DNA of 34,243 nucleotides from Planctomycetota bacterium (lineage in GTDB: Bacteria; Planctomycetota; Planctomycetia; Gemmatales; Gemmataceae). Positions 1,889-32,999 of the stretch are shown in pieces. Numbering within the stretch: the first letter of the stretch is position 1; every line of letters starts with the position of its first letter. The DNA is taken from positions 1-34,243 of the forward strand of contig JAKBCS010000051.1 of NCBI GenBank assembly GCA_021807595.1, given 5' to 3'. The notes under the pieces were generated by a model. The model saw only the letters and a program-made list of their open reading frames with translations. It was not told the origin of the DNA and made no database searches. The position numbers were made by a program, and so were the translations under genes.

Positions 1889-4800
1889 ATGGTTAAAAAA
1901 CTCATCGCATGGGCGGTTAATACTCCCCTGATTGTGATTCTGCTGATGTTCGGGCTGGTGGGGTTCGGGGGGTACGCCTTTTTCAAGGTCAATGTCGAAG
2001 CCTATCCCGATCCGGCTCCCGCCATCGTCGAGGTCATCGCGCAGTATCCGGGGGCTTCCGCCGAGGAAGTTGAACGGCAGGTGACGATACCTCTGGAGGT
2101 AACCCTGGCTGGCATGCCCGGATTGAAATACACGCGCAGCAAATCGCTGTTCGGTCTGGCCCATCTGCGCAATCAGTTCGATTACGGCATTGACTACGAG
2201 AGAGCCAAACAGGAAGTCATCAACCGCTTGCAATTCACCGAATCGCTGCCGATCGTTGTGCTGCCGAAGCTGTCGCCGCAAAGTCCGACCGGCGAAATCC
2301 TTCGCTACACACTAACGGGGCCGAAGGATGAGTTTGGCCGCGACATTTACTCGCTCAACGACTTGAAGGCGCTGCAAGACTGGACTCTGGAGCGCATCTT
2401 CAAACGCGTGCCGCGCATCATCGACGTGTCCAGCAGCGGCGGAACCGTGAAGCGCTATGAGATTCGCCCCGACCCGGATCGCCTGCGCCGCTACGGAATA
2501 AGCCTGGCTCAGTTGCAGAACGCCTTGGCCAGCGCCAACGCCAATGTCGGCGGCGAGCACATTTCGCTGGGTTCCAATCTACTCAACGTGCGCGGCGTTG
2601 GGTTAATCGGCGGCGGACAAGATCCCATGCAAGCGCCGGAAGTCCACAGCACGCGCGATCCGCGCGTCGCCTTGGAGTATCTGCGCCGCGAAGACGAGCG
2701 CCGCATCCGTTCCATCCGCCAGATCACCATTGCCACCATCAACAACCATCCCATCCGCGTCGAGGACGTGGTAGAGGGCGGTCCCCTGAGCTACGGCAGC
2801 GAAATAGGGCGTCTCGGCGTCGTGGTCTCGCATCAGACGCGCCAAGGCCGCGTCATGTATAGCGAACCCCGAAAGGACGCCAACGGCCGATCCGTCCGCG
2901 ACGCCGAAGGGCGCGTCGTGTGGAATTATGAACCGGAGAAAGTGCAAAGCGTAATCCTTTTACGCAAGGGCGAGGACTCGCTGCCCGCTCTGCACGACGT
3001 GGATATCAAAATCAAGGAACTGAACAACGAATCCGGCCGCATGTTGCCCGGCGTCAAAATCGATACCTACTACGACCGTTCCGACCTGATTCACGTCACC
3101 ACCGAGACCGTACAGGAAAACCTGCTCCTGGGCATGGGATTGGTCACGGTCATTCTGTTCATGTTTCTCAGCAATGTCCGCAGCGCGCTGATCGTGGCCA
3201 TCAATATCCCGCTGGCGTTGTTGTTCGCTTTTTCGATGCTGTTCATGCGTGGGAAGTCGGCGAACCTCCTGTCCATCGGCGCGGTCGATTTCGGCATCAT
3301 CGTCGATTCGTCGGTCATCATGGTTGAAAACATTTATCGCCATTTAAGCTCGGGCGAGTACGCGGAGCTGCCGCTCAAGGATCGCATCATCCGCGCCAGC
3401 AGCGAGGTGCAAAAGAGTTTGTTCTTCTCGACGCTTATCATGGTGTGCGCCTTTCTGCCGTTGTTCACCATGCGCGGTCCGGAAGGACAAATCTTCGGCC
3501 CCATGGCCGACACCTACGCCTTCGCCCTCGGCGGAGCGCTGGTCCTCGCCCTCACGTTGGCCCCCGTCCTGTGTCTATTGTTCTTCAAGAAACTCGAGCC
3601 TGTGCCGGATAACTTCCTCGTTCGCGTTCTGAAATCGCGCTATTTGAACCAGCTGCGTTTGTGTCTGAAATATCGTTGGGTAACGTTGGGCGTCATGGGC
3701 AGCCTGATTGTGTTCACCGTCTTTCTCCTGCCGTTGTTGGGCCGCGAGTTTATGCCGGAGCTGGAAGAAGGCAACTTGTGGATACGCGCCACCTATCCCA
3801 TGAACGTCAATCTCGACGCTGTTTCAGAACAGACGGATCGCGCACAGCGCATCATGCAGAGATATCCGGAAACCCAAGCGATCATGGCGCAGATCGGCCG
3901 ACCCGACGACGGCACCGACCCGACCGGCTTCTACAACGTCGAGTTTTTCGTACCACTCAAGCCCCGCGGTGAGTGGCCCGCGATCAAACCGGAAAACGGT
4001 TGGATGAGCCGATTCCGCGAACAACGCCCGCGGACCAAGCCGGAGTTGGTGCGCGAGATGCGAGACGAACTGAATCAAAAGATTGTCGGCGTCGATTGGA
4101 ACTTCTCGCAGAACATCCGCGACAACGTCATGGAGTCGCTGTCCGGCGTCAAGGGCGATAACTCGGTAAAGATCATCGGCCCCGATCTCGACGAGTTGGA
4201 GAAACTGGCCGACCGCTTGCAGATTATTCTCAAAGACGTTCGCGGCGTCGAGGACGTGGGCGTGTTCCGCGTGAAAGGGCAGCCAAACTTGGAGTTTCCG
4301 ATCGACCGCGAGAAATGCCAAACCTACGGCGTCAGCGACAACGACGTACTGACGGTTATCCGCTCGGCGGTGGGCGGACAACCGGTTTCGACGATGATCG
4401 AAGGCGAGAAGATGTTCGACATCACCTTGCGTTGGCCGGAGGCGCTGCGAACCAGCGAGAAGGCGATTCTGAAAATCCCCGTGGACATTTCCAACAATCA
4501 GACGTCGGGCTTCGTTTCCGGCGTGGCTCCGACGCGGATCACCGGCGGCAGCACGGGGCTTTCAACCCTCGGCACCAGCGGAACTCTACCCTCCCTCCAC
4601 GGCAGCATGTGGAACGGCACGCTCAACTATCTCGCGTCCAATCCGCAGCGCCCTCTGCGCGATTTCGTGACGCCCCTCGATTCTCAAGGCCGACCCGATC
4701 CCTCCGGTCATTTCATTCGCGCCGGCGCTTCGACGATCTATCGCGAACAGGGCGAACGCTTGATCGCCGTCAAGTTCAGCGTCCGCAATCGCGATCTCGC

Positions 4801-5419
4801 CGGCGCGGTCGACGAAGCGCAAAGCAAGTCCGCCGATCTGTTCCAGGGCGCTTATCGCGCCGTCTGGAGCGGCGAGTTCGAGGAGATGCAAGAAGCCGAG
4901 GGAAGGCTGATGTACATCATTCCTCTGTCTCTCTTCTTGATCTTCTTACTCCTTTATTTGGCCTTCCACTCGTTTCTCGACGCCTTCGTGGTGCTGTCCA
5001 ATGTGCTGGATCTGTCGATGGGCGGCATCTGGGCGCTGCTGCTCACGGGTACGCACTTCAGCATCTCGGCGGCGGTCGGTTTCATCTCGTTGTTCGGCGT
5101 GGCCATCATGGACGGTTTATTGATGATCTCGTACTTCAATCAGCTGCGCGCCCAAGGGCTGCCGTTGGACGACGCCGTCATGCAGGGCGCTGAAAAGCGG
5201 GTGCGCCCGGTGATGATGACGGCGTTGACGGCGATTCTCGGTCTATTGCCGGCGGCGCTGTCCACGCGCATCGGCGCGCAAACACAACAACCGTTGGCCA
5301 TCGTTGTCGTCGGCGGCATGATTACCACTCTGTTTCTGACGCGCTATCTGATGCCCATTTTGTACAGCCTCTACGGCCATCGTGAACCGCCTGCCGGATC
5401 GGACAGCATGGCCCATTGA
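1889..5419 (+). CDS. Heavy-metal efflux RND permease (CusA/CzcA family)
   Basis: This is a proton-driven inner-membrane pump of 1176 aa, slightly longer than the usual 1020-1070 aa. It has the classic RND layout: TM1 at residues 6-30, a large periplasmic loop with YPGASAEEVERQVTIPLE, a six-helix block around 400-560, a second periplasmic loop, and a final helix block from about 1010. The TM4 signature DFGIIVDSSVIMVEN contains Asp467, Asp473 and Glu480, the acidic pattern of the HME (metal) subgroup rather than the drug (HAE) subgroup. An insertion rich in Gly/Ser/Thr around residues 875-925 may explain the extra length. No outer-membrane TolC-like partner gene lies in this window. The metal specificity is unknown. 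Confidence 0.92.
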   Translation: MVKKLIAWAVNTPLIVILLMFGLVGFGGYAFFKVNVEAYPDPAPAIVEVIAQYPGASAEEVERQVTIPLEVTLAGMPGLKYTRSKSLFGLAHLRNQFDYGIDYERAKQEVINRLQFTESLPIVVLPKLSPQSPTGEILRYTLTGPKDEFGRDIYSLNDLKALQDWTLERIFKRVPRIIDVSSSGGTVKRYEIRPDPDRLRRYGISLAQLQNALASANANVGGEHISLGSNLLNVRGVGLIGGGQDPMQAPEVHSTRDPRVALEYLRREDERRIRSIRQITIATINNHPIRVEDVVEGGPLSYGSEIGRLGVVVSHQTRQGRVMYSEPRKDANGRSVRDAEGRVVWNYEPEKVQSVILLRKGEDSLPALHDVDIKIKELNNESGRMLPGVKIDTYYDRSDLIHVTTETVQENLLLGMGLVTVILFMFLSNVRSALIVAINIPLALLFAFSMLFMRGKSANLLSIGAVDFGIIVDSSVIMVENIYRHLSSGEYAELPLKDRIIRASSEVQKSLFFSTLIMVCAFLPLFTMRGPEGQIFGPMADTYAFALGGALVLALTLAPVLCLLFFKKLEPVPDNFLVRVLKSRYLNQLRLCLKYRWVTLGVMGSLIVFTVFLLPLLGREFMPELEEGNLWIRATYPMNVNLDAVSEQTDRAQRIMQRYPETQAIMAQIGRPDDGTDPTGFYNVEFFVPLKPRGEWPAIKPENGWMSRFREQRPRTKPELVREMRDELNQKIVGVDWNFSQNIRDNVMESLSGVKGDNSVKIIGPDLDELEKLADRLQIILKDVRGVEDVGVFRVKGQPNLEFPIDREKCQTYGVSDNDVLTVIRSAVGGQPVSTMIEGEKMFDITLRWPEALRTSEKAILKIPVDISNNQTSGFVSGVAPTRITGGSTGLSTLGTSGTLPSLHGSMWNGTLNYLASNPQRPLRDFVTPLDSQGRPDPSGHFIRAGASTIYREQGERLIAVKFSVRNRDLAGAVDEAQSKSADLFQGAYRAVWSGEFEEMQEAEGRLMYIIPLSLFLIFLLLYLAFHSFLDAFVVLSNVLDLSMGGIWALLLTGTHFSISAAVGFISLFGVAIMDGLLMISYFNQLRAQGLPLDDAVMQGAEKRVRPVMMTALTAILGLLPAALSTRIGAQTQQPLAIVVVGGMITTLFLTRYLMPILYSLYGHREPPAGSDSMAH

Positions 5420-5441: not shown

Positions 5442-5454
5442 CGGTTAGCCGCGA
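5442..5454. repeat. Half copy of family B repeat
   Basis: CGGTTAGCCGCGAC matches the outer arm of the family B palindromes at 14240, 28056 and 32936, but no closing arm follows. It lies just after the RND permease stop codon and is probably a decayed or partial copy. Confidence 0.5.
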
Positions 5455-5587
5455 CCCAAAGGGGAGCGCGGGGCGGATTCCTACCGAATCGCTCGGACTC
5501 CTTGAGTGCGACCGAAAGAGAACGTAGGATATGGATGGAGGATTGATTGATACGATTCTGCATTTCATTCCGTCCGAGGCTCCTCGC

Positions 5588-6334: not shown

Positions 6335-6356
6335 GAACGAAGGTCTTTTCCCACCC

Positions 6357-6592
6357 GAGCGGGGGGCGTAAGCCCCCTGAGATTACACTCAGGGGGCTTA
6401 CGCCCCCCGCTCGAATGAGTACTCTCAGGGGGGCTTACGCCCCCCGCTCGAATGAGTACACTCAGGGGGCTTACGCCCCCCGCTCGAATGAGTACTCTCA
6501 GGGGGCTTACGCCCCCCGCTCGAATGAGTACACTCAGGGGGCTTACGCCCCCCGCTCGAATGAGTACACTCAGGGGGCTTACGCCCCGCTCG
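6357..6592. repeat. Family A palindrome followed by a tandem array of half-elements
   Basis: It begins with a perfect inverted pair of 25-nt arms (6357-6381 and 6388-6412, loop attaca). The right arm is then repeated in direct orientation at 6424-6450, 6461-6486, 6497-6522, 6533-6558 and 6569-6592, with a 36-bp period. The short linkers alternate between aatgagtacact and aatgagtactct. Each unit carries its own small hairpin, GGGGGC-TTAC-GCCCCC. The second unit has one extra G and the last unit lacks two C. The array separates two convergent genes and overlaps the 3' end of the minus-strand gene. Confidence 0.95.
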
Positions 6593-7553: not shown

Positions 7554-7746
7554 GCGAAGCAGCCTCCCCTCGGTGTCGCTTTTCGGGTTGAGAGACAAAC
7601 CCAATTTAAGCGAGACGAGGGGGGTAACGAAAGATACCATGACGGCCCGTGCCGTTTTTCTATTTTTCCGAAACTGCGCAGACGGCAGATGCGGCACGAT
7701 CGTCGAAAGCAGCAATTGCGGAGCGCGTCTGGTACCGCGATGGCGA

Positions 7747-9168
7747 CTATCTCTTTTGCATCCTCTTTTCGAGCGGCGCGGCGGCGGGATCGATGTCGGA
7801 GTGCGGCAGCCGATCGGGAAGAACTCGAATCGCCGTGGTTACTTTGAGCGGTGCGACCCCGCCCACATCGTAAATCAGCTGCACGAAGAAGGCGCTCCAT
7901 CCTTCTTTCGGCGCGTCGATCTTGGCCTCGTACATCCCTTCGTCAATTCGAGTCAACGGTTTACTTTTGTATGCTTTCCCGATCGTTAGCAGGCGGAAAT
8001 CGCGTGCTTTAGGATTGGTTGCCTGCCAAAGCAACACCTGCTTCGGAGCAGTCTTCGCCCGCACGCGGATCGAACCGTCCTTCTCGAACGCCCACGAATA
8101 CTTGGGACGATTCTTGTCGGCGAGAACCATCTGGTAGAAGGCGAGAATGCTTTCCAGGGCATCGCTACCGCGCAAAGAATGATCGGCATTGGGGACGTAG
8201 CAGAGGTGCTTTTCTCGTTTGAGATCGTCGAAATAGAAGCGGGAGGAATCGGGACAGAAGTATTGGTCGCCCGCAGCGTTGACGATGAACTTGGGCATGG
8301 TCAGCCGTTCGCGGTAGGAATAGGGATCTTCGATGTCCAGAAGCTCTTTCATCCTCGGTGCGTCGCGCCGCTGCACGATGCGATGCTCGAAGTAATTGCC
8401 GACCGCTTCGGTGTAAAAGCCGTAGACCGCGGAATGATGCCGCATTGAATCGTTGACGTTCAACACGTCGATGACGATGGGGACGACGGCGGTCACACGC
8501 TTATCGACGGCGGCGGTACACCAGGTCGTCCAGCCGCGCTTCGACCCCCCGGCGACCACGAACTTATCCAACTCGATTTTACCGCCCCGTTCGCCGGCCA
8601 TTAGTTCTTGCAGGCAATCCATGGCCCTCACGGCGCTTTTTACCATCGGTAGTCGGGCCGGCCAAGTCTCGTCGCCAGTCTTGAGAAACTGGTCCCAGGT
8701 GTAGGCGATTAAATCGTCTTCGGTGCGTCGTTTCCCGTCGTTGTGAAAGATCAACGGCTGATTGGGAACCATGTGCAGCTCGGCGACGACGGTCTGCGTG
8801 GCTTGGGCGATTTTCAGCGTTCGCGCCTCGGCAGCTGCCGGAGCCTCGTTGCCGTTGCCGCCGCCGCCGATGAACAGAAAGCCTGTTTTCGACGCCGGTT
8901 TATCCGGTTTCACCGCGACCAGCCAATGCTGCCAGACCGTGCGCGAAACCTCTTTCTCCGTCCGCCACGATTGACTTTTCAGATCGACAATATATTGTGT
9001 GACGCCGTCGCCTTTCAACGTCCGAACGACTTTCCAGGTATACGCCGCATCGGGTCTGCGAACGTAGCGGTCCAGCGCCGTCTCCGCAGCGTCGCTCGAT
9101 CCGCTCCAACCGAGCAAGACCGCGACTAGCACCAAACGCGCGGTCGAGTGTTTATCTTTGTGTGTCAT
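7747..9168 (-). CDS. PhoPQ-activated pathogenicity-related (PqaA-type) protein, secreted
   Basis: This 473-aa protein begins with a signal peptide (basic start, hydrophobic RLVLVAVLLG, cleavage likely after ...SDAAE). The body matches the PhoPQ_related family, an alpha/beta-hydrolase-like group: an N-terminal segment ending FLFIGGGGNGNEAP, NQPLIFHNDGKRRTEDDLIA, a nucleophile-elbow-like VVAGGSKRGWTTW (Ser209), a strand with FIVNAAGDQYF (Asp), and PNADHSLRG (His). A Ser-Asp-His triad is therefore visible. The substrate is unknown. The reading frame stays open far upstream, but 9168 is chosen because it gives the signal peptide. A MarR regulator lies about 320 bp upstream in the same orientation and may control it. 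Confidence 0.85.
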   Translation of the reverse strand: MTHKDKHSTARLVLVAVLLGWSGSSDAAETALDRYVRRPDAAYTWKVVRTLKGDGVTQYIVDLKSQSWRTEKEVSRTVWQHWLVAVKPDKPASKTGFLFIGGGGNGNEAPAAAEARTLKIAQATQTVVAELHMVPNQPLIFHNDGKRRTEDDLIAYTWDQFLKTGDETWPARLPMVKSAVRAMDCLQELMAGERGGKIELDKFVVAGGSKRGWTTWCTAAVDKRVTAVVPIVIDVLNVNDSMRHHSAVYGFYTEAVGNYFEHRIVQRRDAPRMKELLDIEDPYSYRERLTMPKFIVNAAGDQYFCPDSSRFYFDDLKREKHLCYVPNADHSLRGSDALESILAFYQMVLADKNRPKYSWAFEKDGSIRVRAKTAPKQVLLWQATNPKARDFRLLTIGKAYKSKPLTRIDEGMYEAKIDAPKEGWSAFFVQLIYDVGGVAPLKVTTAIRVLPDRLPHSDIDPAAAPLEKRMQKR

Positions 9169-9487
9169 CGCCGTCAGTCTCGCCTGGGAAAAATGGAAAC
9201 GAAGCGCCCATCGATTCCACCGAGAGTCAAGCGATCGGTCGCGCGACTCGGATGAATGGTGGATGGCCCAAAAGTGTAGACCGATTGCCGCTCGGTTCTG
9301 CACGACCAAGCGATGCCCCCAATGAGGGGTTCGATTCACTCGGCTCGGCGTCAAATCCCAGCTGCGGCAACTTCCATCCATTGGGGGCGGCGTGGATGCG
9401 ATATTCACGCTGAGGTGAAGACTATCTGCAACCCTCGGGCTTGGCCAGACGGAACGCGAAAAGTCGTCCATCGACCCGGACGAACGC
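9169..9487. other. Gene-free stretch between hydrolase-like gene and MarR gene
   Basis: No gene with a plausible start, ribosome binding site and protein composition was found on either strand. A frame open on the minus strand is only the upstream extension of the 7747-9168 gene. Promoter elements for that gene are expected here, but no convincing -35/-10 pair was identified by eye. Confidence 0.5.
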
Positions 9488-9949
9488 TCATTCAAAGGTC
9501 GGAGGAACGACCACGTCGTGGAAACGACCGAGCAAGCGTTGCAAATCTTCGTGGTCTTCTTCCGACATTTTGCCGAGGAGATCGCAAATGCCACCGATTC
9601 GATTCGATTGATAGTCCTGAAAAGCGGAGATGCCGTCCGCCGTCAGCGCCACATCGATCTTGCGTTTGTCGTGCGGATTGATGCGGCAAGTGATGAGCGG
9701 ATGTTCGCGCGTCTCCAGCGAGCGGATGATGCGCGACATCTGCGCGGGAAGCACGCCCAGCTGGCGTTGGATGTCGCCGACGATAAGCGACTCGCGGCGC
9801 TGCAACAACGACAGGGCTAGAAACTCGATTTCCTTCAGATCGCCGCCGCGACGGCGACCGCGCGGCGACAGGAGGCAGAATTGCGCCACGAGGTCGAAAA
9901 TCTGCTGTGCTAGTTCTTGTAAGCGAATTTCGCTGCTGGTGGCGACCAT
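9488..9949 (-). CDS. MarR-family transcriptional regulator
   Basis: This is a 153-aa winged-helix DNA-binding protein. An N-terminal dimerisation helix (LQELAQQIFDLVAQF) is followed by the helix-turn-helix region (SLIVGDIQRQLGVLPAQMSRIIRSLE), the beta wing (LITCRINPHDKRKIDVALTA) and C-terminal dimer helices (LLGKMSEEDHEDLQRLLGRF). The DKRKIDVALT wing is the typical MarR DxRxxxxxLT motif with Lys in place of one Arg. The start at 9949 is favoured by GGGAGGAGA about 8 nt upstream; a GTG at 10012 would add 21 residues without such support. The likely ligand is a small hydrophobic or aromatic compound, by family only. Confidence 0.85.
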   Translation of the reverse strand: MVATSSEIRLQELAQQIFDLVAQFCLLSPRGRRRGGDLKEIEFLALSLLQRRESLIVGDIQRQLGVLPAQMSRIIRSLETREHPLITCRINPHDKRKIDVALTADGISAFQDYQSNRIGGICDLLGKMSEEDHEDLQRLLGRFHDVVVPPTFE

Positions 9950-13189: not shown

Positions 13190-14236
13190 ATGCACCGTTC
13201 GTTGTTGCTGGCGCTCAACGACGTTTCGCCCCAGAACTTGTCGATCTTCGATCCCGTCTCGCCTCCCGCCGAGGCGATCCACCAATTGTCGATGCTCGTG
13301 TTGGCCATCACGGGCGGCATTTTCCTCGTCGTCGAAGGCATTTTGATTTACTCGCTGGTTCGCTTCCGCAGTCCCCACAATCCACGCAACGGAGAGCCGC
13401 CTCAGGTCTATGGCAGCCAACCCATCGAGATCGCTTGGACGGCCGCGCCGGCTCTGATCGTCTTCGTTCTCGCTCTGGTCATCGTTCGCACCGAGTGGGA
13501 GGTGCGCGGCGATCCCGAAAAATTGCAGCCCGAACTGAAGGAGAGCAAACCGCTGCGCGTCACCGCCATCGGGCATCAATGGTGGTGGGAGTACGTCTAC
13601 GAAAGTTTCGGCGACGAGAAACTCGACTTCCTCACGGCCAACGAGTTGCACGTTCCGGCCAGCAATCGCCAGGTGCCGAGCGAACGGCGTCCCGTCTATC
13701 TGACTCTGAAATCGGCAGATGTCAACCACAGCTTCTGGGTTCCGCGATTGGCCGGAAAGACCGATCTCATCCCAGGCCGCACCAATACCATGTGGTTCGA
13801 GACGGGGCAGACGGGCGTATTCGTCGGCCAATGCGCCGAATACTGCGGCACGCAACACGCCAACATGCTGCTGCGCGTCTCCGTCGATCCGCCGGAGCAA
13901 TTCGAGAAGTGGTTGGACAACGAGCGGGCCAACGCCCTCGAAAGCGACGACGCGGCAATTCGTAAGGGCAAGCAGGTATTTCTCGCGCAATCGTGCGTCA
14001 ATTGCCATCGCGTGGCTGGAACCTCGGCGCACGGCAAGGTAGGACCGGATCTGACGCATCTGATGGGCCGAGCGACCTTGGCCGGGGGCACCCTCGACAA
14101 CGACCGCAAGGGAGAGAATTTGCGTCGCTGGATCGAAGATCCGCAGACAATCAAGCCGGGATGTTTGATGCCGGCGTTCGGATTGAGCGCGAGCGATCTC
14201 GATGGCGTGGTTCGCTATTTGTCGTCGTTAGAGTAG
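13190..14236 (+). CDS. coxB: Cytochrome c oxidase subunit II with fused cytochrome c domain
   Basis: This 348-aa subunit accepts electrons and passes them to subunit I. Two transmembrane helices (about 24-52 and 76-98) are followed by WEVRG and GHQWWWEYVY, the aromatic patch used for electron entry. The CuA site is complete: His180 (VNHSFW) and Cys215, Cys219, His223 and Met226 in CAEYCGTQHANM. A class-I cytochrome c follows, with Cys269-x2-Cys272-His273 and a likely Met ligand in CLMPAFG. This makes it a caa3-type subunit II. ATG 13190 has TTGGAGG 6 nt upstream; the open frame upstream is not used. The subunit I gene follows after a family B palindrome. Confidence 0.94.
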   Translation: MHRSLLLALNDVSPQNLSIFDPVSPPAEAIHQLSMLVLAITGGIFLVVEGILIYSLVRFRSPHNPRNGEPPQVYGSQPIEIAWTAAPALIVFVLALVIVRTEWEVRGDPEKLQPELKESKPLRVTAIGHQWWWEYVYESFGDEKLDFLTANELHVPASNRQVPSERRPVYLTLKSADVNHSFWVPRLAGKTDLIPGRTNTMWFETGQTGVFVGQCAEYCGTQHANMLLRVSVDPPEQFEKWLDNERANALESDDAAIRKGKQVFLAQSCVNCHRVAGTSAHGKVGPDLTHLMGRATLAGGTLDNDRKGENLRRWIEDPQTIKPGCLMPAFGLSASDLDGVVRYLSSLE

Positions 14237-14239
14237 AAG

Positions 14240-14310
14240 GTTTTGGTTGGCCGCGGCGCGGAGCGGAGCGCGAGACGCTGCTCGCGCTCCGCGTCGCGGC
14301 CAACCAAAAC
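14240..14310. repeat. Family B palindrome between coxB and coxA
   Basis: GTTTTGGTTGGCCGCG opens an arm whose complement closes at CGCGGCCAACCAAAAC; the inner parts contain GCGGAGCGCGAG and CTCGCGCTCCGCG around a short loop. The arms pair over roughly 30 bp with a small internal bulge. It fills nearly the whole 95-bp gap between the two oxidase genes and ends 21 bp before the coxA start. Related copies lie at 28056 and 32936. Confidence 0.92.
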
Positions 14311-25107: not shown

Positions 25108-25515
25108 ATGGACGACAAACTTCCGCAACGCTTCTCGCTGTCCCTGAGCGGGGGGCGTCAGCCCCCTGAGATTCCCGCAACTCAGGGGGCTTACGACCCC
25201 CGCTCGGATGCGCCTCTCGAAGAGCGCGTCGTGGCCGCGCTGCAAAGCGTGTTTGATCCGGAAATCCCCGTCAATATCTACGAATTGGGTCTGATATACG
25301 ATCTGAAGGTCGATCCGTCCGGCGCGGTGTCGATCCGCATGACGTTGACCAGCCCCGCTTGTCCGGTAGCCGGCGCGCTGCCCGGCGAGGTACAATCCAA
25401 AGTACAAGCCGTCCCCGGCGTCGCCTCGGCCAAAGTCGAATTGGTCTGGGAGCCACCCTGGGAAATGAGCCGCATGTCCGACGAGGCGCGATTGCAATTG
25501 GGCTTATTCGATTGA
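25108..25515 (+). CDS. SufT/MIP18-like DUF59 protein with a repeat-derived N-terminal insert
   Basis: This 135-aa protein is the last gene of the suf operon, 10 bp after sufS-E. Residues about 34-135 form a DUF59 domain: ERVVAALQSVFDPEIPVNIY, ELGLIYDLKVD, MTLTSPACPVAG with the conserved Cys85, then VELVWEPPWEMSRMS. DUF59 proteins of the SufT group help in Fe-S cluster maturation. Residues about 13-33 (LSGGRQPPEIPATQGAYDPR) are coded by a complete 60-bp copy of the family A palindrome and are not part of the domain. Without them the protein would be about 115 aa. The ATG at 25108 has only a weak GAGAT upstream, so coupling to the preceding gene is likely. Confidence 0.87.
   Translation: MDDKLPQRFSLSLSGGRQPPEIPATQGAYDPRSDAPLEERVVAALQSVFDPEIPVNIYELGLIYDLKVDPSGAVSIRMTLTSPACPVAGALPGEVQSKVQAVPGVASAKVELVWEPPWEMSRMSDEARLQLGLFD
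25146..25205. repeat. Family A palindrome inside the DUF59 gene
   Basis: The left arm 25146-25170 and right arm 25181-25205 flank a 10-nt loop (attcccgcaa). Each 25-nt arm differs by one base from the perfect copy at 6357-6412. Total length is 60 bp, exactly 20 codons, so the insertion keeps the reading frame. The element reads without stops in this frame and gives the peptide fragments SGGRQPPE and QGAYDPRS. Confidence 0.95.
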
Positions 25516-25763
25516 GGAAGGTCGAAAAACGGCGGCAGCGGAAGCGACAGAATTGATGCCAACCGAACAAATGCTCGCTCTGCCGGGATAATGGCCTGGA
25601 AGGTTGCCCGATTCGCGGTCGGTTGCGGTAGAAAGCGGCGACAGCACGCAATCGTTGGCACAGTCGCAATTGTTCCATGTTGGCCAAGAGCTAACCGGTA
25701 CCCCGCATCTCCCCGGCTTCCGCGTCGCCGTCGCCGACTTGTTCGTCCGACCCATTTCTCGTC

Positions 25764-26529: not shown

Positions 26530-28017
26530 TTATAGGGTCGGCGTGAACAAGCGGCTTGCGTTCGACAAGGCATGAGAGGCCAGAGAACGGTTTCCCAACA
26601 TTTCGGGATCGAGAATGTCGGCGTCATTCAGATCGTTTCGATACGCCGCCTCCAGATCGGCGATCTGTTGGGCGTCGTGCAACATGCAACCGATCTCGAA
26701 GTTCAAATGCAGACTACGATTGTCCAAATTGGCCGAGCCGACCATGCCCCAGGCGTCGTCGGCCAACACGATCTTGGAATGCATCATCCCCTTGCGATAG
26801 AGATAAATCTTCACGCCGTAGCCGAGTAGCTCCTCGGCGTAATACAGGCCGGCATAGTAGGAAATATAGTGATCCGGCCTCAGCAGGGTGAGAATGCGCA
26901 CATCCACGCTGCGATACCGAGCCGCTCGCAGCGCGTCGAGCAAGCCGCCGTCGGGTATCAGATACGGACTAGCGATCCACAGTCGCCGCCGCGCGCTGAC
27001 GATGGCCATAAAGTAGATTTCGCGTATCGTGTTGATCTCTTGATCCGGCCCGGAATCGGCGATCTGGGCGCATACGTCGCCGGCCGGAGGGCGTTCGGGG
27101 GCATACTTGGCTTCGTCGAGAACCTCGCGGCGGACGAATTGCCAATCTTCGCCGAAGACGCGCTGCAAATCGGCGACGACGGGGCCTTCCAAGCGTACGA
27201 ACGAATCGCGCCAGTAACCCATCGCGGCACTTTTGCCGAGATATTCGTCGCCGATGTTCATGCCGCCGGTGAAGCCGACGCGGCCATCGACGACGGTGAT
27301 CTTGCGATGGTTGCGGAGATTGACGCGGATCAAGGAATGCAAGGGATTGAGCGGTAAGAAGGCGGCGATATGTCCTCCGGCCTCGCGCAGCGGACGCAGC
27401 GAACGACCCTTTAAGTACAGGCATCCCATCGCATCGTACAGCAACCGCACTTCGACGCCTTCCTTGGCCTTGCGCGCAAGCAAATCGAAGAGACGTTGTC
27501 CCGTGGCATCGGATCGAAGAATAAAATACTCTAAATGTATGTAATGTTGCGCCGATTCGATGGCTTCCAAAAGCGCGGCATAGGCCGATTCGGTTTCTTG
27601 ATAGACGACGACGGAGTTGCCGGGCCGCATGGGGTAGGAACCCAGACGCTCGGCCAGTTCGCCCAGATGATGCTCGTGCCGATCTGCTTCGGGATTCAGC
27701 GGCGGACGGGGCGGATGATGGCGGCGGCGCGTGCCGTGGGCATCGCGACGATGGCGCACTCGGCGCAGCAAATAATTGTAGCCAAACATCCAGAACAACA
27801 GCGCGCCGAACAGCGGCATCAACAGAACGACGAGACACCACGCCATCGTCGAGTTGGCGTCTTTCTTGCTCAGCAACACCCAAGGAATAAAGATGCCTAT
27901 AACGACGAAATCGAGGATCGTCGCCGCCACTGTGATGTGCGGCCAATAGTGGGAGAGTTCGGAAAACACTTTGCACCCTTGTATGCGCATGCACCCGGAC
28001 GAATCGACTGCTTGCAT
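26530..28017 (-). CDS. cls: Cardiolipin synthase (phospholipase D family)
   Basis: This 495-aa membrane enzyme joins two phosphatidylglycerol molecules to form cardiolipin. Two N-terminal transmembrane helices (about 30-50 and 57-80, PLDc_N type) and a His/Arg-rich linker precede two PLD domains. Both HKD motifs are intact: His237-x-Lys239-x4-Asp244 (NHRKITVVDG) and His413-x-Lys415-x4-Asp420 (MHSKIVLADD), followed by GSANLDNRS. The length fits ClsA-type synthases (about 480-510 aa). The ATG at 28017 is used; 27990 would remove nine residues, and neither has a clear ribosome binding site. Upstream is a family B palindrome. Confidence 0.9.
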   Translation of the reverse strand: MQAVDSSGCMRIQGCKVFSELSHYWPHITVAATILDFVVIGIFIPWVLLSKKDANSTMAWCLVVLLMPLFGALLFWMFGYNYLLRRVRHRRDAHGTRRRHHPPRPPLNPEADRHEHHLGELAERLGSYPMRPGNSVVVYQETESAYAALLEAIESAQHYIHLEYFILRSDATGQRLFDLLARKAKEGVEVRLLYDAMGCLYLKGRSLRPLREAGGHIAAFLPLNPLHSLIRVNLRNHRKITVVDGRVGFTGGMNIGDEYLGKSAAMGYWRDSFVRLEGPVVADLQRVFGEDWQFVRREVLDEAKYAPERPPAGDVCAQIADSGPDQEINTIREIYFMAIVSARRRLWIASPYLIPDGGLLDALRAARYRSVDVRILTLLRPDHYISYYAGLYYAEELLGYGVKIYLYRKGMMHSKIVLADDAWGMVGSANLDNRSLHLNFEIGCMLHDAQQIADLEAAYRNDLNDADILDPEMLGNRSLASHALSNASRLFTPTL

Positions 28018-28055: not shown

Positions 28056-28120
28056 CGGTTAGCCGCGTCGCGCGGCGAAGCGCGTCGCCCTCTCGCTCTG
28101 CTGTGCGTCGCGGCTAACCG
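28056..28120. repeat. Family B palindrome between ispD and cls
   Basis: CGGTTAGCCGCG opens and CGCGGCTAACCG closes the element, a perfect outer stem. The inner part (GTCGCGCGGCGAAGCGCG and the following CTCGCTCTGCTGTGCGTCG) pairs less perfectly than in the copy at 32936. It occupies the intergenic space between two minus-strand genes. Confidence 0.9.
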
Positions 28121-28140: not shown

Positions 28141-28881
28141 CTACCACTTGTACTCGTCGTCGAACGGATGAATCGACCGCGCCGCTTTCGGTTTGGGACG
28201 CGATTTCAGAATCGCCTCGGCCAACGCTAAATCTTCCTTGGCGGTGATCTTGATATTCCCAGACGATCCTTGCAAGAGATATACCGGATGGCCCAGTGCC
28301 TCGATCAATTGGGCGTCGTCGGTGATGTCGCCGCCAATTTGAGAACGTTTGGCATAGGCTTCGATCAACCAATCGCGGCGGAACACTTGCGGCGTTTGCG
28401 CCAGCCACAACCCTTGACGCGGCACCGTCTCCCGGATGCGGCCTTTGTCGTCGCTGCGTTTGATGGTATCCGCCACCGGCACGGCCAGCATCGCTGCTCC
28501 CGTCTTCACCGCGCTCTGAAAGACGGTATCGATGAGTTCCGCCGTCACGCACGGACGGGCGGCATCGTGAATGGCGACAAACTCCACCTCCGGTTTGAGG
28601 AGCGCCAGCGCGTTGGCGACGGAATCGAAGCGCTCCTTGCCGCCGTCGGCGATCTGCACATTCATAAAGGCGAGATTGGCCTGATAGCGGCGGCGAAAAG
28701 TCTCCTGATCTTCCGGCGCGACGACGATGAGAGACTGAACGACATCATCGCGAGTGATGAACAACTCGGCGCAGCGGAGCCAAACGGCGCGGCCGTCGAG
28801 GTTGACGAACGGCTTCTTTTCGCGATCGCGGAAGCGAGACGACTTACCGGCCGCGGGCAGAATGACGGCGAATCGAGACAT
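28141..28881 (-). CDS. ispD: 2-C-methyl-D-erythritol 4-phosphate cytidylyltransferase
   Basis: This 246-aa enzyme transfers CMP from CTP to methylerythritol phosphate, the third step of the MEP route to isoprenoids. Its motifs are ILPAAGKSSRFRDREKKPF (nucleotide-binding loop), IADGGKERFDSVANAL, IHDAARPCVTAELID, VPVADTIKR, LAQTPQVFRRD, GGDITDDAQLIEALGHPV and GNIKITAKEDLALAEAIL. All regions expected for IspD are present, and the length is usual with a short extra C-terminal tail (PKPKAARSIHPFDDEYKW). The start is ATG 28881. No ispF fusion or neighbour is seen. Confidence 0.94.
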   Translation of the reverse strand: MSRFAVILPAAGKSSRFRDREKKPFVNLDGRAVWLRCAELFITRDDVVQSLIVVAPEDQETFRRRYQANLAFMNVQIADGGKERFDSVANALALLKPEVEFVAIHDAARPCVTAELIDTVFQSAVKTGAAMLAVPVADTIKRSDDKGRIRETVPRQGLWLAQTPQVFRRDWLIEAYAKRSQIGGDITDDAQLIEALGHPVYLLQGSSGNIKITAKEDLALAEAILKSRPKPKAARSIHPFDDEYKW

Positions 28882-31572: not shown

Positions 31573-32913
31573 ATGAAATTCCTAGCCATTCTCAAAGATT
31601 CACTGCGCGAAGCCCTGGACACTAAAGTCTTTTACGTCATGGTAGGCTTCTCGCTGTTGGTGGTCTTGCTCGTCGGCAGCATCGGCTATCGGCCGGTGTC
31701 GGTTGAGGAAGACGCCCAGCGGTTGACCGATCGCGCCACATGGTTACTCCAGAATTTTGCCGATCGGCAGAACCTGAAAGTCGTGCCGCTGTGGAGCATC
31801 AAGGATTTCGAGAAGACTCAACCCAACGCCGAGCCTTGGAACACGGGCTATCGCTTCGCCTTAACGCTCGAGTTTCAGCAAGAAGAGGAAGCCAAGCAAG
31901 CCCGCGCCGTTCAGGGACTGTCCGTCAAGCAGATTCAAGACATGATGCGAGGCCAATTCTCTTACCTCAAGGATTTGAAGGTTTCCACCCTTCCGCCGCT
32001 CGATCCGAAGGAGATTCGCTTTCTCGTCGCCGCCGAGGGGGCCAAAACCTCCCGCGCGCGCGATTGGCCGCATCATCCCGTATTGTTCTTCGTCGTGCCC
32101 CTCACTCTGTGGCGGCTGCCCATCCAGTCCTATGTGCTATTCTGGGAATCGTGGATTATCAATTGGGTCGGAGCGGCGGTGGCGCTCCTCATTAGTTCCA
32201 TCATAACCGCGTTTTTCATTCCCAATATGCTCCGCAAGGGAACCGTCGATCTGCTCGTGGTCAAACCCATCGCTCGGCCGGTGCTGCTGTTGTATAAGTA
32301 CGTTGGCGGACTGACGTTTATGTTTTTGAACACGGTGGTGGCCGTCGTCGGCATTTGGTTGGTCTTGGGTCTGCGCACCAACATCTGGGGTATGGGGTTC
32401 TTGCTCGGCATCTTCTCTTTGACGTTTCAGTTCGCCTTATACTATGCCGTCTCCACCCTATTCGCCGTATTGAGCCGCAGCCCCATCGTCGCCATTTTGA
32501 TGACCTGTCTCTTTTGGTTCGTCTTCGCGCTGCTGTTCGGCTACGGCTATCGTTTCGTGGATTCGACGCGAAAGCTGCGCGGCATGTTCGAGGCGGAGAT
32601 GGCCGAGGCTCAACTCGAAAAAGACGACGAAAGAAGAGCGATCAAGGACAAAGTACCCGAAAAATTACTGCCCGACTCGGTTTATACTGTTGCCGACGCC
32701 ATCCATCTCGTCACGCCGCGGTTGAAAGATCTGGACGTGGTGACGGACAAATGGATTCTCGACGATCTCACCGAGCCGGATAGCCCGCAGAGGAAAGGGG
32801 CCGATACCGCCTACGCCGGCTTCAGCTGGACCGAGGCGATTTCAGTTACTTCCATCTACATTGTGGTATTATTGGCTTTGTCGTGTTGGTGGTTCGCCCG
32901 CAAGGATTATTAA
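31573..32913 (+). CDS. ABC transporter permease
   Basis: This 446-aa ABC-2-type membrane subunit pairs with the ATPase just upstream. The first helix ([19 protein letters not shown], about 19-37) is followed by a large extracytoplasmic loop of about 135 residues with mixed charge. Five further helices cover about 175-330 ([39 protein letters not shown] and others). A charged loop ([20 protein letters not shown]) precedes a final helix near the C-terminus ([16 protein letters not shown]). [19 protein letters not shown] is the typical inner segment of these permeases. ATG 31573 is chosen by homologue-like [15 protein letters not shown]. The substrate is not known. Confidence 0.85.
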
Positions 32914-32935: not shown

Positions 32936-32999
32936 GGTTGGCCGCGACGCGCAGCGGAGCGCGAGGTTGCCCGCGCTCCGCTGCGCGTCGCGGCTAACC
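32936..32999. repeat. Family B palindrome before threonine synthase gene
   Basis: GGTTGGCCGCGACGCGCAGC pairs with GCTGCGCGTCGCGGCTAACC across 28 bp (a single G-T type difference), with loop aggttgcc. It is the cleanest copy of family B. It sits between the ABC permease stop (32913) and the threonine synthase start (33038), where it might act as a bidirectional hairpin or mRNA 3'-end barrier. Confidence 0.94.

Follow-up and report, generated by a model that had tools for sequence, protein, structure and literature searches.

Among the described systems, the REPINs of P. fluorescens SBW25 share several traits with the palindromes of the planctomycete genome G000 studied here. According to the excerpts of PMC3116915, they consist of two inverted REP units in a hairpin, with a preferred spacing and an extragenic position. 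Likewise, they adopt 'hairpin' and 'clover' folds, leave singlets as remnants and are linked to a Y1 transposase. On the other hand, the G000 palindromes present a TTAG/TTGG foot, a doublet of mostly 58-67 bp and arms that are almost fully paired, which differs from the SBW25 elements as these excerpts describe them. Also unlike them, the cognate transposase was not found in the G000 draft.

The GTAG REPs of the E. coli type, with their TnpA-REP transposase (REPtron), have in common with our elements a foot tetranucleotide 5' of an internally mismatched stem, a transposase gene bordered by REPs, and the class 2 Y...NP signature (excerpts of PMC8266576 and PMC6006769). However, the first base of the foot is here mostly T, not G, and the protein found in relatives scores below the NF047646 cut-off. 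GT[AG]G is also missing in subclass 2.6 and class 3, according to the excerpt of PMC6006769. We rejected the assignment to GTAG REPs, the feet being TTAG/TTGG instead of GTAG/GTGG.

Within the same phylum, an excerpt of PMC3733652 describes GTAG REPs and many tyrosine (Y1) transposase genes in the planctomycete R. baltica. This comparison is by description, and the feet are GTAG there. The CGTC REPs of the same excerpt also form head-to-head dimers that are mostly intergenic. However, their 8-9 bp stems almost always start with AT and their loops are of 4-5; these arms present neither. That excerpt gives no dedicated transposase as known for CGTC REPs, whereas the arms studied here flank a transposase in relatives. 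The CGTC-REP assignment was rejected on arm anatomy (no CGTC-tagged 8-9 bp stem beginning with AT). The TIRYT, or TIRtron, of the same excerpt has a Y1 gene between long inverted repeats that can be dispersed too, as is the case here. In contrast to it, many of our flanking repeats are built as doublets, the unit being a footed hairpin.

For E. coli, the excerpt of PMC8049555 records REPINs in genomes that have no RAYT gene. Together with PMC3733652, this means that neither REPs in the phylum nor orphan populations are unprecedented, as far as these excerpts go. Among the best matches listed from open-licence papers, none concerned REPIN or RAYT in Gemmata or Gemmataceae. We consider it very probable that the palindromes are a REPIN population with a TTAG foot, moved by a RAYT-type enzyme.

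Palindromes of the window and their spread

The window is the whole stretch of 34,243 nucleotides that was analysed. It corresponds to contig C5 of G000, a draft of 5.67 Mb in 282 contigs (95.5% complete). The initial annotation had described three palindromes and a half copy in it. They are the following:

32936..32999, no strand: complete REPIN-like element, two REP-like units with the feet outside
28056..28120, no strand: complete but decayed element, with a - strand ORF on either side (28141-28881 and 26530-28017)
14240..14310, no strand: complete element with core 14245-14305, between coxB-like and coxA-like ORFs
5443..5470, + strand: half copy, one REP-like unit (CCC-loop-GGG subtype) with GGTTAG as foot

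The coordinates of the three palindromes were borne out. The half copy is present, although its start is 5443 instead of 5442. The stems had been called near-perfect, which holds for 32936 and 14240 (one mismatch each) and fails for 28056 (five mismatches).

The 32936-32999 element has 28-bp arms and an 8-nt loop, with the foot GGTTGG on the left and GGTTAG on the right. Its DNA fold reaches -44.7 kcal/mol (z -11.2), and the + strand ORF upstream of it (31573-32913) stops 22 bp before the element. The 14240-14310 element has 26-bp arms and a 19-nt loop (fold z -10.2). It begins 3 bp past the stop of the coxB-like ORF, which ends at 14236, and lies ahead of the coxA-like ORF; both labels were given by eye, with no search. 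The 28056-28120 element has 27-bp arms (fold z -4.4), and the - strand ORF 28141-28881 ends 20 bp from it. At the matching place, the sister genome G003 holds a near-perfect copy. Finally, the half copy 5443-5470 lies 23 bp past the end of an ORF that looks RND-type by eye (1889-5419), and the fold of its arm (-7.2 kcal/mol, z -2.3) is the one expected from the unit model.

The palindrome scores are 25 for 32936, 23 for 14240 and 12 for 28056. Three first-order resamplings of the window gave, respectively, no palindrome of at least 11, one of 11 and one of 12. Since resampled windows reach 11-12, the palindrome score does not by itself place the 28056 copy beyond chance. It is set apart by its shared arms, not by its palindrome score.

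All window copies show the common outer arm GGTTRGCCGCG with the A/G exchange between arms, as the initial annotation had read it. This foot pattern has seven occurrences in the window, every one at the four named places. The family is not confined to this region: the whole-genome count gives 288 feet in the G000 draft (139 +, 149 -) against 32 for the reversed pattern, which served as control. With the full-palindrome pattern (GGTTRGCCGCG-N20..45-CGCGGCYAACC), we counted 72 elements in G000, 54 in G003, 10 in G002, 4 in G001, and 0 in G023 and G035; the six controls gave 0. G003 is the sister genome to G000 (identity about 90%, completeness 93%), G001 and G002 (completeness 91%) belong to the same genus, and G023 represents another genus of the same family. 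The zero of G023 arises because the pattern limits the loop, and the 90-bp copies of this genome have longer loops.

The family survey comprised 95 genomes, G000 among them. The 26-base arm pattern GTTAGCCGCGACGCGNAGCGGAGCGC is present in 10 of them, from several genera, with controls at 0. Copies are numerous in G023 (123), G003 (90) and G000 (79), followed by G012 and G094 (9 each), G002 (4), G018 (3), G102 (2), and G085 and G016 (1 each). The other 85 genomes have no match to this pattern. An exact scan of the GTDB collection for the arm returned 27 stretches, from BP6.bin110 (24), Centralia_MAG_388 (2) and Gemmataceae bacterium Baikal-deep-G160 (1).

The GKTTAGCCGCGA feet number 232 in G002 and 509 in G102, the highest value in the family. 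Yet only two matches to the 26-base arm occur in G102, and its transposase homologue is weak. This genome probably carries another subtype with its own enzyme.

Arm anatomy and doublets

The unit consists of a foot (T)TAG, a stem CCGCG/CGCGG with an A.GAG internal loop, a variable 3-bp stem and a short loop (often GNA). The arms beside transposase genes were parsed as foot (mostly xxTTAG)+CCGCG+A+triplet+loop+complementary triplet+GAG+CGCGG. This set comprises 42 arms from 20 loci, several of them from one locus, and the loop length was fitted. A score of 7 or more out of 10 is reached by 34 arms, with the triplets CGC/GCG (14), GCC/GGC (13), GGC/GCC (3), CCC/GGG (1) and GAC/GTC (1), and two that are incompletely paired. 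The remaining eight arms misfit; L257 and L261 are plain perfect hairpins, and L239 and L248 would need another register. When a single arm per locus was taken and the register was fixed by the first GAG (17 of the 20 loci were usable), 11 of 17 were fully paired, against a mean of 4.2 and a maximum of 10 in 2000 shuffles. The inner stem is compensated across the transposase lineages.

Likewise, we examined 148 arms from 74 complete elements of G000 and G003. In the fixed register, 123 had all three inner pairs, against a mean of 93.9 and a maximum of 105 in shuffles that ignore the kinship of copies. With fitted loops the paired arms were 126 (shuffles: mean 94, maximum 103). Two paired classes, CGC/GCG and CCC/GGG, account for this covariation within the genus. 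Among the 17 distinct triplet combinations, 15 are unpaired, which is decay. The two arms differ in triplet or loop in 27 of the 74 elements, and in triplet in 19. Both arms are paired inside in three of these 19 and not in the other 16; L043:845 and L050:8405 are clear, and L039:583 is so with a fitted loop alone. The CGC-type arm of the 32936 element, folded by itself as free DNA, did no better than shuffles (z 0.25, other register), and single-arm folding energies gave no support to the arm model for CGC-type arms.

Doublets and sites were studied on stretches covering 878 kb of G000 and 863 kb of G003. The 104 strict arms of G000 form 33 feet-outside pairs, 0 feet-inside and 4 tandem, with 33 singles; 26 of the 33 feet-outside pairs are spaced 60-69 bp. 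The 67 strict arms of G003 give 21 feet-outside pairs, 0 feet-inside, 0 tandem and 25 singles. The most frequent two bases ahead of the foot in G000 are T (68/104) and C (59/104). It is possible that they are part of the element or of the cutting site.

Other arrangements are also present. At L050:8405-8573 there is a small array whose arms repeat at 53 bp, with CGC and CCC subtypes mixed. In G023, the arms of L219:2368-2612 and L220:2098-2337 stand ~240 bp apart foot to foot. They enclose another imperfect inverted repeat, and so these are composite elements.

Transposase genes in related genomes

The initial annotation viewed the palindromes as REP/MITE-type elements whose enzyme would be encoded elsewhere, and proposed to look for a Y1 (RAYT) gene with the same palindrome on its flanks. 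The relatives G023 and G002 do have a gene of this kind, which supports this view, and none was detected in G000. More precisely, contig C117 of G023 carries a Y1 gene (P0001) whose stop lies 1 bp from an arm. This arm equals the window's right arm over 28 bases, and the contig end cuts it. A second, slightly different doublet lies upstream of the gene. The G002 homologue (P0002; L101, L118 and L240 are this same gene) is 61% identical to the G023 protein and has a compensated arm variant on both sides. Its borders are GTTTAG-CCGCG-A-GCC-GYA-GGC-GAG-CGCGG units, in which the loop contains either C or T. Their GCC/GGC inner subtype is also dispersed in G002 with a GGTT foot (C17, C227).

Homologues of the G023 protein (E <=1e-3) occur in 47 of the 95 family genomes, and close homologues (best E <=1.2e-39) in 26. 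Of the 55 windows that could be tested, 38 have strong palindromes within 200 bp of the homologue gene; the control windows from the same loci have them in 2 of 260 cases. Counted by locus, 26 of 30 have at least one, and 12 have them on both sides. Footed arms of the type seen in G000:C5 stand beside the gene at 20 of the 30 loci; other gene-side palindromes differ in sequence (e.g. L253, L258, L260, L262, L264-L267). The four loci that have no palindrome are L239 and L245, with single arms on both sides, and L249 and L259, with none. At L244 (from G067) the two sides of the gene differ, one having CGC-type units and the other CCC-type; G000 contains both of these subtypes. This transposase locus also carries a GTAG foot.

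The residues H104 and H106 (HUH) and Y173, N177 and P178 (Y...NP) are invariant in 10 aligned proteins. The best NCBIfam match is RAYT, NF047646, with 37.6 bits where the cut-off is 80. The Pfam family Y1_Tnp (PF01797) gives 21.8 against 23, and a similarly weak match to XRCC4 gives 21.1 against 26.2. A PDB profile search yields weak matches to Y1 transposases, among them 2xm3 (ISDra2 TnpA) at 9e-5 and TnpA-REP 4er8 at 0.023. The PDB search with the single protein had no match at 0.01. Judged from its sequence, the relatives' protein is a divergent Y1 (RAYT-like) transposase.

At least 20 feet are present in 16 of the 26 genomes with the close transposase, versus 9 of the 69 without it (Fisher 5.9e-6, phylogeny ignored). 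These nine are G000, G001, G003, G014 and five genomes with weaker homologues, including G102. Conversely, the number of feet of this sequence stays below 10 in 9 of the 26 genomes with the close transposase. Since one divergent Y1 occurs in 26 of 95 genomes, with most examined loci bordered by palindromes and a compensated inner stem, the family offers a natural experiment on hairpin reading. It covers the foot, the internal loop and the stem identity as read by a Y1 enzyme. Besides, the copy-rich genomes with and without the gene allow a comparative test of why REPINs persist.

Several searches were made for the gene in G000. The G023 protein as query found no homologue in G000, G001 or G003, and NF047646 had no match in G000 at E up to 1. 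A ten-member profile gives 335 bits in G023 and 317 in G002; with this profile the best score of G000 is 15 bits (E 0.05), and G001 and G003 have weak matches of 34 and 21 bits. With a narrow arm pattern, no arm was found at the Y1 loci L052-L080, L096-L109 and L111-L130, a locus set that excluded G023:C117. This pattern missed the G002 gene because it omitted GTTTAG feet and other inner variants. The cognate gene of G000 was either lost or left unassembled.

PF01797 matches a single gene in G000, L031, which looks unrelated. It is a lone Y1-like gene of 131 aa (L031:1510-1905, in G000:C104), located beside an argH-like ORF. It reads PMHLLVRL at the HUH position (by eye) and is possibly inactive. 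Two arms stand ~1.5 and ~2.2 kb off. We rejected this gene as the mobiliser, with no arm within 1.5 kb and no intact HUH by eye.

Site occupancy and competing explanations

Occupancy differs between the sister genomes. The G003 contig C154 aligns to most of the window, up to 30177, at 86-92%. At this place, the 14240 element is absent, and the 28056 element and the 5443 half copy are shared; the 32936 site falls outside the match. Over the stretches studied, 14 of 56 sites in G000 and 12 of 38 in G003 could be placed in the other genome. They make 18 distinct comparable sites: nine are shared in some form, eight are filled in one genome only (five in G000, three in G003), and one is a remnant. 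The whole gap is replaced at two of the eight (L043:845 and L281:18878). The remnant, L035:10622, sits inside a called gene with a net difference of 57 bases, a multiple of three. No clean empty junction was seen among the compared G000/G003 sites, and gain versus loss is unpolarised.

The elements lie mostly behind genes, with gene positions taken from a simple home-made gene caller. In G000, 37 of the 56 sites are between co-directional genes, 8 between convergent and 5 between divergent ones. One site falls in a gene, and the 5 located at stretch edges are unclassed. The 38 sites of G003 comprise 23 co-directional, 12 convergent, 1 divergent, 0 in a gene and 2 at edges. The statement of the initial annotation that all copies are intergenic is right for the window; genome-wide, one of 56 sites (L035:10622-10686) falls in a called gene. 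The orientation relative to genes, which it had proposed to check, favours co-directional neighbours in the 878 kb of G000. The median distance from the last base of the upstream stop to the element start is 22 in G000 and 33 in G003. This place behind genes agrees with the REP pattern reported in the excerpt of PMC3733652.

A possible cycle would begin at replication, when the DNA is single-stranded and each arm could fold by itself. The RAYT-type Y1 transposase (HUH + Tyr) is predicted to recognise the foot plus the hairpin and to cut beside the feet. The whole doublet would then be copied or joined elsewhere. New copies would survive mostly right behind stop codons, where as RNA they would form a strong 3' hairpin. 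We infer the binding, the cutting, the joining, the single-strand step and the movement of the window copies by the enzyme of this clade. The analysis itself showed the copy numbers, the anatomy of the arms, the compensation across transposase lineages, the bordered gene in relatives, the occupancy differences and the place behind genes.

Terminal inverted repeats, small size and dispersed copies could also describe a MITE, that is, a non-autonomous derivative of a DDE insertion sequence read as double-stranded terminal inverted repeats. The two G023 copies with much longer inserts (~240 bp foot to foot) would fit too, as in a deleted element. However, the arms border a Y1 gene in relatives, and the compensation of the inner stem across Y1 lineages has no obvious role in the recognition of double-stranded ends; we regard this origin as very unlikely. 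Another reading takes the palindromes as fixed host elements, functional and immobile, such as RNA 3' hairpins, terminators or protein-binding sites. Their position close behind stop codons and their very stable hairpin speak for it, as do the 9 of 18 comparable sites common to G003, plus the remnant. Nevertheless, 8 of the 18 sites are filled in only one of two genomes that are ~90% identical, the distribution is patchy (85 of 95 genomes without the 26-base arm), and the elements flank a transposase gene in relatives. In addition, terminator-like calls overlap neither 28056 nor 32936. That they are immobile host elements is very unlikely, and a host role may exist as a secondary use. The intrinsic terminator in particular was rejected: the scan that gave no call over these two elements accepts only loops of 3-8, and by eye T tends to precede the stem and A to follow it, which is the wrong order for a terminator. 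Rfam gave no match in the window at gathering scores.

Several points stand against the REPIN reading. No cognate gene was detected in G000 or G003, both among the richer genomes, and G102, with the most feet of all (509), has only a weak homologue. Likewise, the feet are not GT[AG]G, the protein stays below the curated cut-offs, the within-genus covariation involves two paired classes, few elements with differing triplets have both arms paired inside, the free CGC-type arm folds no better than shuffles, and the occupancy differences come without clean empty junctions. One refinement is that the gene is present in G000 and absent from the draft only, so that the orphan population would be an artefact. 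Assemblies break easily at a gene enclosed by long palindromes: the G023 contig begins within the palindrome beside the gene, and at least two G000 contigs (C16, C39) end in or at an arm. On the other hand, the gene is undetected in G003 too (93% complete), though the same search detects the G002 gene at 317 bits in a genome that is 91% complete. We give this refinement an even chance. Alternatively, the G000/G003 lineage would have lost the transposase and kept a large REPIN population whose sites still differ. Either a benefit to the host would maintain such a population, or an unrelated Y1 enzyme would move it in trans, reading the arm fold and tolerating different stem sequences. We hold this scenario as rather doubtful.

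The comparison with G003 also revealed other differences. At the G000 sites L033:6496 and L051:9272, the G003 gaps (L306, L341) hold a third family, AGCCCGAAGCGC...GCGCTTCGGGCT, instead. These gaps look as if they were shared landing places. The window contains another palindrome family at 6356-6481 and 25146-25205, with GGGGGCGTAAGCCCCC units forming small hairpins in inverted pairs. The stretch 6336-6589, which holds the first GGGGGCGTAAGCCCCC array, is missing at the matching place in G003. Likewise, G003 lacks 7735-9466, which holds most of a 615-aa - strand ORF (7747-9594), and the short gap left there contains a family B doublet of the type seen in the window. Finally, at ~25661-25665 of the window G003 is longer by ~350 bp. 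The extra sequence reads by eye like part of a Uma2-type gene, and with this resemblance the G000 version may be a deleted copy.
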